From: Acidobacteriaceae bacterium
GTDB lineage: Bacteria; Acidobacteriota; Terriglobia; Terriglobales; Acidobacteriaceae
Assembly (NCBI GenBank): GCA_027452245.1
Contig: DAIDGW010000222.1
Location: 1-32,679, forward strand
Direction: 5' to 3'
DNA length: 32,679 nucleotides
Both the position numbers and the translations under genes were made by a program. Below the pieces are notes generated by a model. It was not told the DNA's origin. It made no database searches and saw only the letters and a list, made by a program, of their open reading frames with translations. This document shows positions 25,860 to 29,612 of the stretch, piece after piece; within the stretch, counting starts at the first letter, position 1; each line of letters opens with the position of its first letter.

Positions 25860-26747
25860 TCAGGCGGCGCGCTTCAGCTGTTCCGGTTCCGGATCATTCT
25901 GCTTGCCTGGAATCGGGCCTTTCTTGCTCTGCTTCGCCAGTTCCGCATTCAGTTCCGCCCCAACCAGCAGCGCAAACGCGTTCCAATAGAACCAGGTCAT
26001 CAGCGCGATGAATCCGCTCAAGGTTCCGTAGATTCGGTTGTAAGTCCCAAAATGGCGGAAGTAATATCCCAATCCCCACGAGAGCGCCAGCCATGATCCC
26101 ACCGCCAGGATGGCCCCCGGCAATGTCGCCCGGAAGCGCTGCTTCACATTCGGAGCCAGAAAGTAAATCGCCTCCACTGACATGATCGTGAAAGCCACCG
26201 CCACCAGCCAGTGCACCGGCATCCACAGCACAACGAACACATTTGACAGATCGATTCGGCTCGCCAGCCACTCGCCAAACCGTGGACCCAGAATCATGAT
26301 GATGAGTGCAATCGTCAACAGAAGTCCCGTCATCAGTCCCAGTCCGATCGCAATCAGCCGCGTCTTCCAGAACGGACGTTCATCGACCACGTCATAGGCC
26401 ATGTCCAGCGCTTCGATCAGCGCATCGAATGCGGCCGAAAGTACCCAGATCAGCCCCAGTGCTCCAGCCGACAGCCACGCCCCGTGATTCGCCTGCAATA
26501 CGCTCCGTATCACCGGCCGTACCATCGACATCGAGTTCTGCGGCAGTAACCGTGTCATCAGTCTGATCACGTGGCCGAACAAGTGTGGCACCGGTACTAG
26601 CCCCATCACTGCCGACAAAACAATTAGTCCGGGGAATACCGCCAGGATGAAGTAATAGGAGAGAGCCGCCGCGGCTTGGAAGACATGGTGCCGGACGATG
26701 TCGTCATAGGACGAATTGATCGCCTGCTTGAAATGCGCGCGGGTCAC
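25860..26747 (-). CDS. YihY/BrkB-family inner membrane protein
   Basis: A 295-aa polytopic membrane protein of the YihY/virulence-factor-BrkB family (once misnamed ribonuclease BN). Family blocks: AAALSYYFILAVFPGLIVLSA, then several further helices, GYYFRHFGTYNRIYGTLSG and LMTWFYWNAFALLVGAELNAEL near the C-terminus. The tail is short and charged. The biochemical function of the family is not settled. The reading frame begins with GTG at 26747, directly after an in-frame TAA and next to GAGG with very tight spacing. It converges on the tamB-like gene and diverges from the radical SAM gene across 120 bp that must hold both promoters. Confidence 0.93.
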   Translation of the reverse strand: MTRAHFKQAINSSYDDIVRHHVFQAAAALSYYFILAVFPGLIVLSAVMGLVPVPHLFGHVIRLMTRLLPQNSMSMVRPVIRSVLQANHGAWLSAGALGLIWVLSAAFDALIEALDMAYDVVDERPFWKTRLIAIGLGLMTGLLLTIALIIMILGPRFGEWLASRIDLSNVFVVLWMPVHWLVAVAFTIMSVEAIYFLAPNVKQRFRATLPGAILAVGSWLALSWGLGYYFRHFGTYNRIYGTLSGFIALMTWFYWNAFALLVGAELNAELAKQSKKGPIPGKQNDPEPEQLKRAA

Positions 26748-26867
26748 CTCAACTTAGATGGCCATTCTTTCTCATTAAGGTTGCGCGCGAAACCGGGAAC
26801 CTGCTGCTTTCCCAAATTCTCCTCCGCTTGTGCAATCGCAGACAACCTTCCTGCATCTAATCGAAAC

Positions 26868-27959
26868 ATGTCGGTCTCTGTACGTCCCAGTCTTACAACC
26901 AGGCACATAACCAAAGCGTGGTGGCAGGTTCTGAGCGGGCACGTTCCCATGCTCTCCATCGAGATTACTCGCGAGTGTCCTCTCAGCTGTCCCGGATGTT
27001 ACGCCTATGGCGATTCCCATCTCGGAGGCGACACGACTCTGCGGGAACTCAGCGACTTCCGTGGGGATGCCTTGGTAAACGGCATTCTCGACCTCGTCCG
27101 TCGTCATCGTCCCATGCATGTCAGTCTGGTCGGCGGCGAGCCCATGATCCGCCACCGCGAACTTGATCGCATCCTTCCCGCTTTGAGCAACATGGAAATC
27201 TTCTCCATGGTTGTCACCAGCGGCGTCATTCCGATTCCGGAACATTGGATGGACATTCCTCAGTTTCGTGTCGCCGTTTCCGTCGACGGCCTTCCCGAGC
27301 ACCATGACGAACGCCGCAAGCCCGCAACCTATGAACGCATTCTCAAAAATATCGCTGGGCGTAAAGTGAACGTCCACTGGGTCATCACTCGCCCCATGCT
27401 TGCGCGTCCGCCTTACCTTGAAGAATACGTCTCGTTTTGGAGCCAGCGTCCCGAAGTCGATCACATCTGGGTTAGCCTCTACAGCCCGCAAGTCGGCGAG
27501 AACACTCCTGAGTGCCTCACCCCAGACGACCGTCGGCGCCTCGCTCGCGAGCTGCCCGAACTCTCGCACCGTTATCCAAAGTTGCTCGTTCCTCAGGGTA
27601 TGGCGCGCGCCTTCGTCACTCCTCCCCGGAGTCCCGACGATTGCCTGTTCTCCAAGATGTCATTGAATTTTTCCGCCGATCTCCAGACGCGCGTTGAACC
27701 CTGCGTCTTTGGCGGAACGCCTGACTGCTCGCAATGCGGCTGCAGCATCAGCAGCGCCCTGCACTGGATTCACAACGTCAAACTCGCAGGTCCTGTCAAG
27801 GTTGGACATCTGGTTCGCTCTTCGCTCGCCGTCGGATCCGCCATCAGCAAGCTTCGCGGCGATCACAGCCGTCCGGACCGCTGGCAGACCGGACGCACCT
27901 TCACCGGAGATCGTTCTCCGCTCGTGCAGATTCAATCCCCCGAGCGCGAAACCCGCTAG
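26868..27959 (+). CDS. Radical SAM protein with extra C-terminal cysteine cluster
   Basis: A 363-aa protein. The radical SAM [4Fe-4S] motif is CPLSCPGC (C37, C41, C44), followed by family-typical strands (MHVSLVGGEPMIR, VTSGVIPI, RVAVSVDGLPEHHDERR, HVPMLSIEITREC). A second group, C279, C287, C290 and C292 (CVFGG...DCSQCGC), suggests an additional iron-sulfur cluster of a twitch/SPASM-like kind. It could act in peptide or small-molecule modification; the substrate is not recognisable. I chose the ATG at 26868 because the upstream extension of the frame overlaps the divergent yihY-like gene and shows no conserved features. The candidate selenocysteine rhodanese follows 85 bp downstream on the same strand, so an operon is possible. 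Confidence 0.88.
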   Translation: MSVSVRPSLTTRHITKAWWQVLSGHVPMLSIEITRECPLSCPGCYAYGDSHLGGDTTLRELSDFRGDALVNGILDLVRRHRPMHVSLVGGEPMIRHRELDRILPALSNMEIFSMVVTSGVIPIPEHWMDIPQFRVAVSVDGLPEHHDERRKPATYERILKNIAGRKVNVHWVITRPMLARPPYLEEYVSFWSQRPEVDHIWVSLYSPQVGENTPECLTPDDRRRLARELPELSHRYPKLLVPQGMARAFVTPPRSPDDCLFSKMSLNFSADLQTRVEPCVFGGTPDCSQCGCSISSALHWIHNVKLAGPVKVGHLVRSSLAVGSAISKLRGDHSRPDRWQTGRTFTGDRSPLVQIQSPERETR

Positions 27960-28044
27960 CTTTCCGGTCATCAAACCGCATTTACAGGTGTTTGCTGTAT
28001 GGCGCAGCGGTCCGGATTGTGTCATTCGGTATAGAGAGGAATCT

Positions 28045-28392
28045 ATGTCTGATGCCCTTCGAATTTCTATTGAAGAACTGCGTCGCCGTATGGATGCCGG
28101 CCAAGATTTCACCTTGATCGACTCCCGTAATCCTCATGCTTGGGTGGAGTCGCATGAAAAATTGCCCGCCGCCATCCGCGTGCCCGCCGATGCTCTCGAT
28201 CAGCATCTTTCCGAAATCCCGAAAGACAAGCCGATTGTCATTTACTGCACGTGACCGCATGAGGCCTCAAGCGCCAGTTTGGCGCAACAACTTCGCGACC
28301 GGGGATTCAAAAATGTCTGGGCGCTGCAGGACGGATTCCACGCCTGGAAAGATGCCGGGCTGCCGCTCGAACAGAAACGCGCAGCCGCCTAG
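28045..28392 (+). CDS. Candidate selenocysteine-containing rhodanese (in-frame TGA at the active site)
   Basis: Single-domain rhodanese of 115 aa if the TGA at 28252-28254 is read as selenocysteine (U70). ATG 28045 follows AGAGAGGA at good spacing. The first half is a normal rhodanese start (FTLIDSRNPHAW, KLPAAIRVPAD, KPIVIYCT). The TGA follows, then PHEASSASLAQQLRDRGF and GFHAWKDAGLPLE up to a TAG at 28390. Relatives carry the pattern Y-C-x-C-P-x-E-A at this place, so the TGA replaces the second Cys exactly and gives C68-T-U70-P. Rhodaneses transfer sulfur, or use a redox-active Cys. A Sec there would be catalytic or redox-active. The frame after the TGA is open and conserved. Alternatives are a recent nonsense mutation or a base-call error. 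If UGA is a stop, the product is a 69-aa fragment without an active site. Confidence 0.7.
28252..28254 (+). other. In-frame TGA, candidate Sec codon
   Basis: The codon falls between ACG (Thr69) and CCG (Pro71) of the rhodanese active-site loop. A single base change from TGC or TGT (Cys) would give it. It is the only stop in the 115-codon frame before the TAG at 28390. Confidence 0.65.
28271..28285 (+). promoter_or_regulatory. Candidate bacterial SECIS hairpin
   Basis: GCGCCA (28271-28276) and TGGCGC (28280-28285) form a perfect 6-bp stem with loop GUU (28277-28279). The loop opens 22 nt after the TGA. Bacterial SECIS elements lie inside the coding region just after UGA, with a small apical loop carrying G in its first positions; the E. 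coli fdhF loop starts about 17 nt after its UGA. A weaker lower stem (GAGG with CUUC) can be drawn around an internal loop. The hairpin is seen in the sequence; its function is inferred. GC-rich coding DNA can form such stems by chance. Confidence 0.5.
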
Positions 28393-28472
28393 CGTGAAAA
28401 ATAGGCGAGGGCCTACACGAGGAACTTCGCGCCTCTCATGCCGTATACTGCCCTTTTGCGCTCTTGCCGGGC

Positions 28473-29612
28473 ATGAAGTCCAATCCTGCTGCTAAACCCC
28501 GTCTCGCGTACATCGACTGGATGCGCGGGCTCGCCTGCGTCCTCATGTTTCAGACGCACTGCTATGACTCCTGGCTCGGAGGCTCCGCCCGCCAGGGCAA
28601 ATTCCTCATGTATTCCCAGCTCGGCGGGACTTTTCCTGCCCCGCTGTTTCTCTTTCTCGCCGGCATTTCATTCGCGTTGGTCACCGAGAAGCTCTGGCGC
28701 AAAACGCTTTCTCCGCATCAGGTCGCGGCCTTCACCATCCGCCGCGGCGCTGAAATCTTCGGCTTTGGCTTGCTCTTTCGCTTGCAGGAATACGTCATCG
28801 CCTGGGGATGGGCGCCTTACACCGACCTGCTCCGCGTCGATGTTCTCAACATCATCGGCCTCTCCATGATGTTCATGGGCCTTGTTTGCTGGATCGTGCT
28901 CGCCCTCCACCGCCAGACCTATTCTCGCCTCGCTCTGGTTCTATCCGGATGCGGAACAGCACTTCTGATTTCGCTTGCCACGCCGCCACTTTGGACCACC
29001 CACCGCCCCAACTGGCTTCCCTGGCCGCTTGAATCCTACATCAATGGAGTGCACAACCTCGGCACGCCGCAAGCCTGGCTCTTTCCCATCTTTCCCTGGA
29101 CCGCCTTCGCCTTTGCCGGGCTCGCAGTCGGTTTCCTCCTGCAAAGTCCACGCCTGCAGGCACTCGGATCGCGCACTTTCTTTTCCTTCGGCGCAGCCGG
29201 CATTCTGCTCATCGCCTTCGCACGATGGCTCGACTCGCAGCCTCATCGACTCTATGCCGTGTACGATTTTTGGCACACCAGTCCCGAATTCTTCCTCCTT
29301 CGGCTCGGAATGCTGTTGATGATTCTCTGCGGAAGTTATCTATGGTGCCGCTGGGGGGCAGGCCAACTCGGATTCAGCCCCCTCATCGTCCTCGGACAGG
29401 CTTCCCTGCTCGTCTATTGGGTTCATCTGGAATTCGTCTACGGGCGCGTGTCCATCCTTCCTAAGCACGCGGTCGGGGTCCGCGCCGCATCCTTCGGGCT
29501 GTTGACCATCACACTCGCCATGCTCGCACTTGCTTATTTCCGCATCCGTACCAAGGGCAGCTTTCCTGAATTCCTCAGTCGGCTCTCGTTGCGTCCGGCT
29601 AGCGCTCGTTGA
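28473..29612 (+). CDS. DUF1624/HGSNAT-like multi-pass membrane acyltransferase
   Basis: About 379 aa with roughly ten membrane helices. The N-terminal YIDWMRGLACVLMFQTHCYDSW and the following EIFGFGLLFRLQEYV ... LLRVDVLNIIGLSMM match the heparan-alpha-glucosaminide N-acetyltransferase-like catalytic family (PF07786/DUF1624). These proteins are thought to move acyl groups across the membrane to sugars or other acceptors. The acceptor here is unknown. ATG 28473 and TTG 28464 are both possible starts; ATG is preferred, though no good ribosome-binding site precedes either. The gene converges on the YheT-like hydrolase with only 3 bp between the stop codons. Confidence 0.8.
   Translation: MKSNPAAKPRLAYIDWMRGLACVLMFQTHCYDSWLGGSARQGKFLMYSQLGGTFPAPLFLFLAGISFALVTEKLWRKTLSPHQVAAFTIRRGAEIFGFGLLFRLQEYVIAWGWAPYTDLLRVDVLNIIGLSMMFMGLVCWIVLALHRQTYSRLALVLSGCGTALLISLATPPLWTTHRPNWLPWPLESYINGVHNLGTPQAWLFPIFPWTAFAFAGLAVGFLLQSPRLQALGSRTFFSFGAAGILLIAFARWLDSQPHRLYAVYDFWHTSPEFFLLRLGMLLMILCGSYLWCRWGAGQLGFSPLIVLGQASLLVYWVHLEFVYGRVSILPKHAVGVRAASFGLLTITLAMLALAYFRIRTKGSFPEFLSRLSLRPASAR

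Follow-up and report, generated by a model that had tools for sequence, protein, structure and literature searches.

A candidate selenocysteine rhodanese with a C-x-U loop and a SECIS-like hairpin in an Acidobacteriaceae genome

The window analysed here, a stretch of 32,679 nucleotides from an Acidobacteriaceae bacterium (assembly GCA_027452245.1, contig DAIDGW010000222.1; home genome 6.23 Mb in size and 97.6% complete), carries a short rhodanese gene with one in-frame TGA (Table 1). Read through this TGA, the frame matches the Pfam Rhodanese family (PF00581) over residues 9–103 (57 bits against a gathering cut-off of 22.2; E-value 2.8e-15). An AlphaFold2 model, for which the 22-row alignment described below served as input, shows the rhodanese fold with good confidence (mean pLDDT 87.4) and has a strand (64–67), the CTU loop, a helix (71–85), a second strand (91–94) and a second helix (97–103). 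Foldseek relates the model to solved rhodaneses (best E-value 1.3e-8). The original prediction of a complete 115-codon rhodanese frame with a single TGA is thus borne out by the sequence, by Pfam and by the structural model. The loop reads Y-C-T-U-P-H-E, continuing as CTUPHEASS; as was also predicted, the TGA lies at the second place of the C-x-C/U pair, and the first Cys (C68) is kept.

Table 1 Features of the selenocysteine rhodanese locus in the window.
Feature	Position	Strand	Basis and remarks
Upstream neighbour, radical SAM protein (PF04055)	26676..27959	+	Pfam
Shine-Dalgarno-like GAGAGG	28034..28039	+	Read directly in the sequence; ATG 5 bases further on
Candidate Sec rhodanese gene: ATG start, 115 codons, one in-frame TGA, TAG end	28045..28392	+	Frame reading, Pfam, 22-row alignment
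Cys68 codon TGC, first chalcogen of the C-x-U pair	28246..28248	+	Invariant in the 22-row alignment
Putative Sec70 codon TGA (codon 70)	28252..28254	+	TGA in 22/22 alignment rows, window included
SECIS-like hairpin GCGCC-AGTTT-GGCGC within the coding sequence, codons 76–80	28271..28285	+	Loop G at 28277, 23 nt past the TGA
Downstream neighbour, HGSNAT_cat-like protein (PF07786)	28464..29612	+	Pfam

The genes on either side are not conserved around the rhodanese and are uninformative on its function. We compared the window with 38 loci out of the 49 from named genomes, many of which have little flanking sequence: no neighbour beyond the gene itself and overlapping frames was common to more than three loci, and the window was syntenic with only one of the 38 (L060). 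No functional link of the radical SAM or HGSNAT-like neighbour to the rhodanese is in evidence, and the neighbourhood lends no support to a pathway. At three loci (L076, L078 and L084), a methyltransferase-like gene lies directly 3′ of the Sec rhodanese.

Viewed in one genome on its own, a rhodanese pseudogene decaying after a nonsense mutation would show the same lone stop, as would a misread base at 28254, and one relative (L093) does appear to be broken by frameshifts. Homologues make decay or error highly improbable, and we reject both. Among the matches listed for 200 genomes of the family, each of the 23 copies of at least 53% identity, the window included, has exactly one TGA. All 22 copies that can be aligned at full length (the window and 21 homologues, leaving out L050, whose 5′ end is out of frame) share it at codon 70. 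Residues C68, T69, P71, E73, S75, S76 and S78 are invariant in these 22 rows. A paralogue in the home genome (L002) also has a TGA, at the loop position equal to that of the window rhodanese. The claim that the TGA is not a random nonsense mutation therefore holds. A partial match of 77 residues in a further genome (G126; 44% identity) again has one TGA.

In a scan of named genomes, the TGA-containing motif YCTU was found at 38 of 49 loci, with C-x-C at 10 and a frameshift at one. The YCTU carriers are mainly Acidobacteriota (including gp1, gp4, Pyrinomonadaceae and Luteitalea), joined by one Planctomycetota and one Dehalococcoidia metagenome-assembled genome (MAG). The compact Sec rhodaneses of these last two (L091 and L092) may reflect either gene transfer or mis-binned contigs. 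Across the phylum sample, 98 of 396 genomes have a match at an E-value of at most 1e-20, with Sec copies, Cys copies and fusions pooled. A match was found in 203 plasmid records, every one below 60% identity, and a search of phage records with the rhodanese gave none.

The sequence past the TGA evolves as coding sequence, much as the 5′ part does. Over codons 82–110, differences between the window and 19 homologues at the first, second and third codon positions amount to 0.276, 0.174 and 0.555, compared with 0.298, 0.192 and 0.623 over codons 4–67. The 3′ halves of the homologues are conserved and not decayed, in keeping with the predicted frame that stays open and protein-like to the usual end of the family. 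This bears on a second alternative, in which the UGA is a true stop, a 69-residue N-terminal piece is made and the downstream sequence is kept for some other reason, such as reinitiation or an RNA element. UGA is certainly used as a terminator here: it ends 9 of the 14 long open reading frames of the window, and is the terminal stop of the rhodanese gene itself in 6 of 19 homologues. However, the region downstream of codon 70 is conserved as protein and includes the second strand and both helices that follow the loop in the model. Moreover, the TGA aligns with Cys in several homologues (L110, L053, L054 and L057), as for a redox residue. In one of these, a compact copy (L110, G380:C10), the Sec codon is TGT, the frame is unchanged and the hairpin is lost; the protein shares 85% identity with L084, the Sec copy that is its sister (tree support 100/96), and its genome retains selB and tRNA-Sec. 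At codon 70, then, homologues have TGA or, rarely, Cys, and conservation continues after it, as the proposed homologue check anticipated. We consider a genuine stop very improbable and reject it as an explanation of this TGA.

The home genome encodes the complete selenocysteine machinery, the presence of which had been put forward as a check. SelA (549 bits), SelB (371 bits) and SelD (365 bits) all score over their curated cut-offs, and tRNA-Sec (selC), with anticodon TCA, scores 68.8 bits, in agreement with ARAGORN. The selD gene (L024, G000:C108) itself has one in-frame TGA, reading AAG-U, so SelD of this genome is probably a selenoprotein too.

The rhodanese tends to co-occur with the machinery, although not strictly. 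Among the matches listed for the 200 family genomes, in which about 108–109 genomes in total have selB over cut-off, the compact gene is accompanied by selB in 19 of its 23 genomes, compared with 89 of 177 others (Fisher p = 0.0035). Of the four remaining compact-gene genomes, G092 and G073 have tRNA-Sec but no selB over cut-off, and G024 and G057 (75 and 85% complete) have neither at the thresholds used. Relatives of the DedA type, described below, show a stronger association: genomes with selB hold 37 of 42 Sec copies compared with 15 of 47 Cys copies (p = 4.9e-8; 89 genomes, made up of 80 places plus 9 others, about 40 lower-ranked stop-free places being left out). Both selB and tRNA-Sec are present in all 15 further genomes of the phylum, five of which were picked for Cys copies. 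Cys rhodanese copies occur beside selB and tRNA-Sec in G380, G445, G257, G246 and G518, and such copies in genomes with full machinery speak against a simple rule linking Sec to machinery. Two genomes (G380 and G438) have two strong tRNA-Sec matches apiece.

Bacterial SECIS elements are stem-loops located shortly downstream of the UGA and have a G near the start of their apical loop. The window hairpin has this position and this G, and it spans nucleotides 17–31 downstream of the TGA, a place that is fixed among copies. Because the folding energy of longer stretches is unexceptional (z = 0.26 for 71 nt and −1.06 for 44 nt), and the 27-nt stretch with a z of −3.5 was picked after the hairpin had been seen, the case for the hairpin rests on comparison. 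We pooled compact, DedA-fused and other CxU/CxC relatives and chose distinct copies by loop motif. All five pairs are formed in 97 of 105 Sec copies and at least four in 104, and a G is found at loop position 2 in all 105. Among 61 Cys copies, 7 form the five pairs and 13 have the loop G. The full hairpin together with the loop G occurs in 97/105 distinct Sec copies versus 3/61 distinct Cys copies. Compensatory double changes are seen at pair 2 (C-G to T-A, in 6 copies) and pair 3 (G-C to A-T, in 1). Codons 76–80, which form the hairpin, are nearly invariant even at synonymous sites: across 28 Sec genes they are AGC (28/28), GCC (27/27), AGT (28/28), TTG (26/28) and GCG (26/26), whereas background use of these codons is 5, 28, 5, 22 and 34%, respectively, AGC and AGT each making up about 5% of the 57 background serine codons in the Sec genes compared. 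One DedA-type copy (L193, G153:C8) has a Cys codon yet an intact hairpin with the loop G, and has the look of a gene that changed from Sec to Cys recently and left a fossil SECIS behind.

The hairpin also bears on a third alternative, namely that a suppressor tRNA or an altered genetic code makes the UGA specify some other residue, such as Cys or Trp. That relatives exist in a Cys form is compatible with such a reading. Nevertheless, the genome has the complete Sec machinery, the hairpin with its loop G accompanies TGA copies and is rare in Cys copies, and TGA terminates other frames. There is hardly any probability left for this alternative, and a changed code was rejected.

By computational standards, 28045–28392 is a genuine selenoprotein gene, a reading to which we assign a probability of roughly 0.92; this figure covers the selenoprotein reading and not enzyme activity. 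Comparison establishes the open frame and its conservation, the hairpin and the presence of the machinery; selenocysteine insertion itself is what we infer. The original proposal of a candidate selenoprotein is in this respect supported by the machinery, the homologues and their conserved 3′ halves. SelB and tRNA-Sec would insert selenocysteine at the UGA of codon 70, as directed by the bacterial SECIS hairpin inside the coding sequence, and the product would be a 115-residue, single-domain selenoprotein with a rhodanese fold.

Rhodanese domains of this kind are also found fused to membrane domains. The home-genome paralogue L002 (G000:C105, loop at about 1690) combines a VTT (DedA) membrane domain with a Sec rhodanese (YCT-U-AREA), and its hairpin, GCGCC-CGGGT-GGCGC, is of the same type as that of the window. 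DedA (VTT)–rhodanese fusions have been reported (in the passage available of PMC10127716). They resemble the window rhodanese in having a C-x-U or C-x-C loop and, when they contain Sec, the same hairpin, but differ in their N-terminal VTT membrane domain (as in L002 and L052) and in often having Cys (47 of 89 genomes checked). In a further fusion, L133 (G222:C21, 136–1836), the partner of the Sec rhodanese (YCA-U-PNE) is an Na+/H+ exchanger domain, and the hairpin is present. Another home-genome locus, L003, was rejected as a Sec candidate because its loop has Cys and its TGA precedes the likely start.

Selenocysteine rhodaneses as such are not new. In the parts available of a 2026 review (PMC13188914), five forms are distinguished, of which form 3 is listed with the motif CxU and under the model NF041203, and the entry 'Rhodanese-like domain-containing protein form 3' is referenced to Zhang and Gladyshev 2005. 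NF041203 (rhodanese_LYCAU, 'rhodanese-related (seleno)protein') is also the best NCBIfam match of the window rhodanese (104.6 bits, E-value 2.8e-30), just under its cut-off of 115. Eight other compact Sec copies score 83.4–110.9, and the scores of two Cys relatives are 69.4 and 86.6; among 297 phylum genomes, a single place passes the cut-off (G278, L145, which is the same as L115). In our tree, which has few columns and 32 open forks of 82, and from which L093 (frameshifts) and L104 (poor alignment) were removed beforehand, this place is separated from the window's side by a starred branch (98/95). The likeness to form 3 lies in the single rhodanese domain and the C-x-U in the loop (C68-T69-U70 in the window); the differences are the loop itself, YCTUP as opposed to LYCAU, and a score below the curated cut-off. 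Given that score and the separate clade on the tree, we treat the window rhodanese as part of a sister clade of the known CxU kind and not as a filed member of NF041203. An 'undescribed subgroup', as first proposed, is therefore apt for the clade, which is separate and just below the cut-off, but not for the kind, which both publications and NCBIfam already cover.

Other rhodanese-like families are more distant. The fold is shared with GlpE-type sulfurtransferases (1gmx; E-value 5.2e-6 by Foldseek and 5.9e-10 by profile), but the window rhodanese scores only 48.4 bits against the NCBIfam GlpE cut-off of 102. The short loop of GlpE-type enzymes holds a single catalytic Cys and lacks C-x-U. The window loop, CTUPHEASS, also differs from the short catalytic loop with basic residues of classical GlpE-type enzymes. 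Forms 1, 2, 4 and 5 are likewise rhodanese-like selenoproteins, but they have other Sec motifs according to Table 1 of PMC13188914, which gives UxxS and UxxG for forms 1, 2 and 4 and describes form 5, TsoB, as rhodanese/DsbD fusion-like. Against the TsoB model, with a cut-off of 805, the window rhodanese scores 27.8 bits. In the portions available of the full-text literature, mostly outside subscription journals, we found no report of the acidobacterial YCTUP clade or of Sec in DedA–rhodanese fusions. Acidobacteria are credited with 3 selenoprotein families and 4 proteins in a passage of PMC1794560, and Occallatibacter riparius with 3 selenoprotein genes in a passage of PMC12013277. As the families are not named in these passages, some of these published selenoproteins may be of the CxU rhodanese kind.

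The chemistry of the loop is less certain than its selenocysteine. In alignments without gaps to 6mxv and to domain 2 of 1yt8 (sequence/profile), U70 falls on the catalytic Cys, whereas a gapped alignment to 3tp9 places C68 there. In the original statement that the active-site Cys is replaced, the replacement at the second loop chalcogen is supported, but either U70 or C68 may be the classical catalytic residue. The first Cys is kept in all 89 DedA-type relatives, which were chosen by homology, with Sec and with Cys at the second place alike. This retention, with the invariance of C68 in the 22-row alignment, suggests a working part for both chalcogens. Neither Arg nor Lys is conserved in the loop, C-T-U-P-x-E-x-S-S, of these 22 rows. 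Classical thiosulfate sulfurtransferases have the loop CRxGxR, with basic residues. Classical thiosulfate:cyanide sulfur transfer is therefore less likely for the window rhodanese, judged from its loop.

Given the conservation of both chalcogens and the lack of a conserved basic residue in the loop, we lean, at somewhat less than even odds, towards a redox or persulfide-reducing role of C68 and U70 over classical sulfur transfer. C68-x-U70 would form a thiol/selenol redox centre, in which sulfane sulfur (from a persulfide or polysulfide) would be taken up on one chalcogen and resolved by the other. Sulfide would be set free, and the resulting selenenylsulfide would be reduced by thioredoxin or a low-molecular thiol. 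Alternatively, U70 (or C68) of the same selenoprotein could serve as a classical rhodanese nucleophile, passing sulfane sulfur (or selenium) on to an acceptor. The ungapped alignments of U70 to the catalytic Cys of 6mxv and 1yt8 domain 2 favour this possibility, which has perhaps one chance in three, but the conserved first Cys, both in the 22 rows and in the DedA-type relatives, and the loop without conserved basic residues argue against it. To extend the redox reading to the acidobacterial YCTUP rhodaneses at large, free or fused to DedA or Na+/H+ antiporter domains, is more speculative still: these could form a large uncharacterised subfamily with a C-x-U selenenylsulfide centre that reduces persulfides or polysulfides and does not transfer sulfur, a proposal we regard as rather unlikely.

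Gene callers that take TGA as a stop would truncate the protein at residue 69. Together with a score just under the cut-off of the model meant for its relatives, this means that the clade may be mis-annotated in databases. The clade adds a well-sampled branch of selenoproteins, with natural Sec/Cys swaps and SECIS hairpins kept or lost, that suits testing why selenocysteine is retained. If the proposed mechanism is true, Acidobacteriota would have a selenium-dependent sulfur chemistry, and if the persulfide-reducing YCTUP subfamily is true as well, the handling of sulfane sulfur would be selenium-dependent in many soil acidobacteria.
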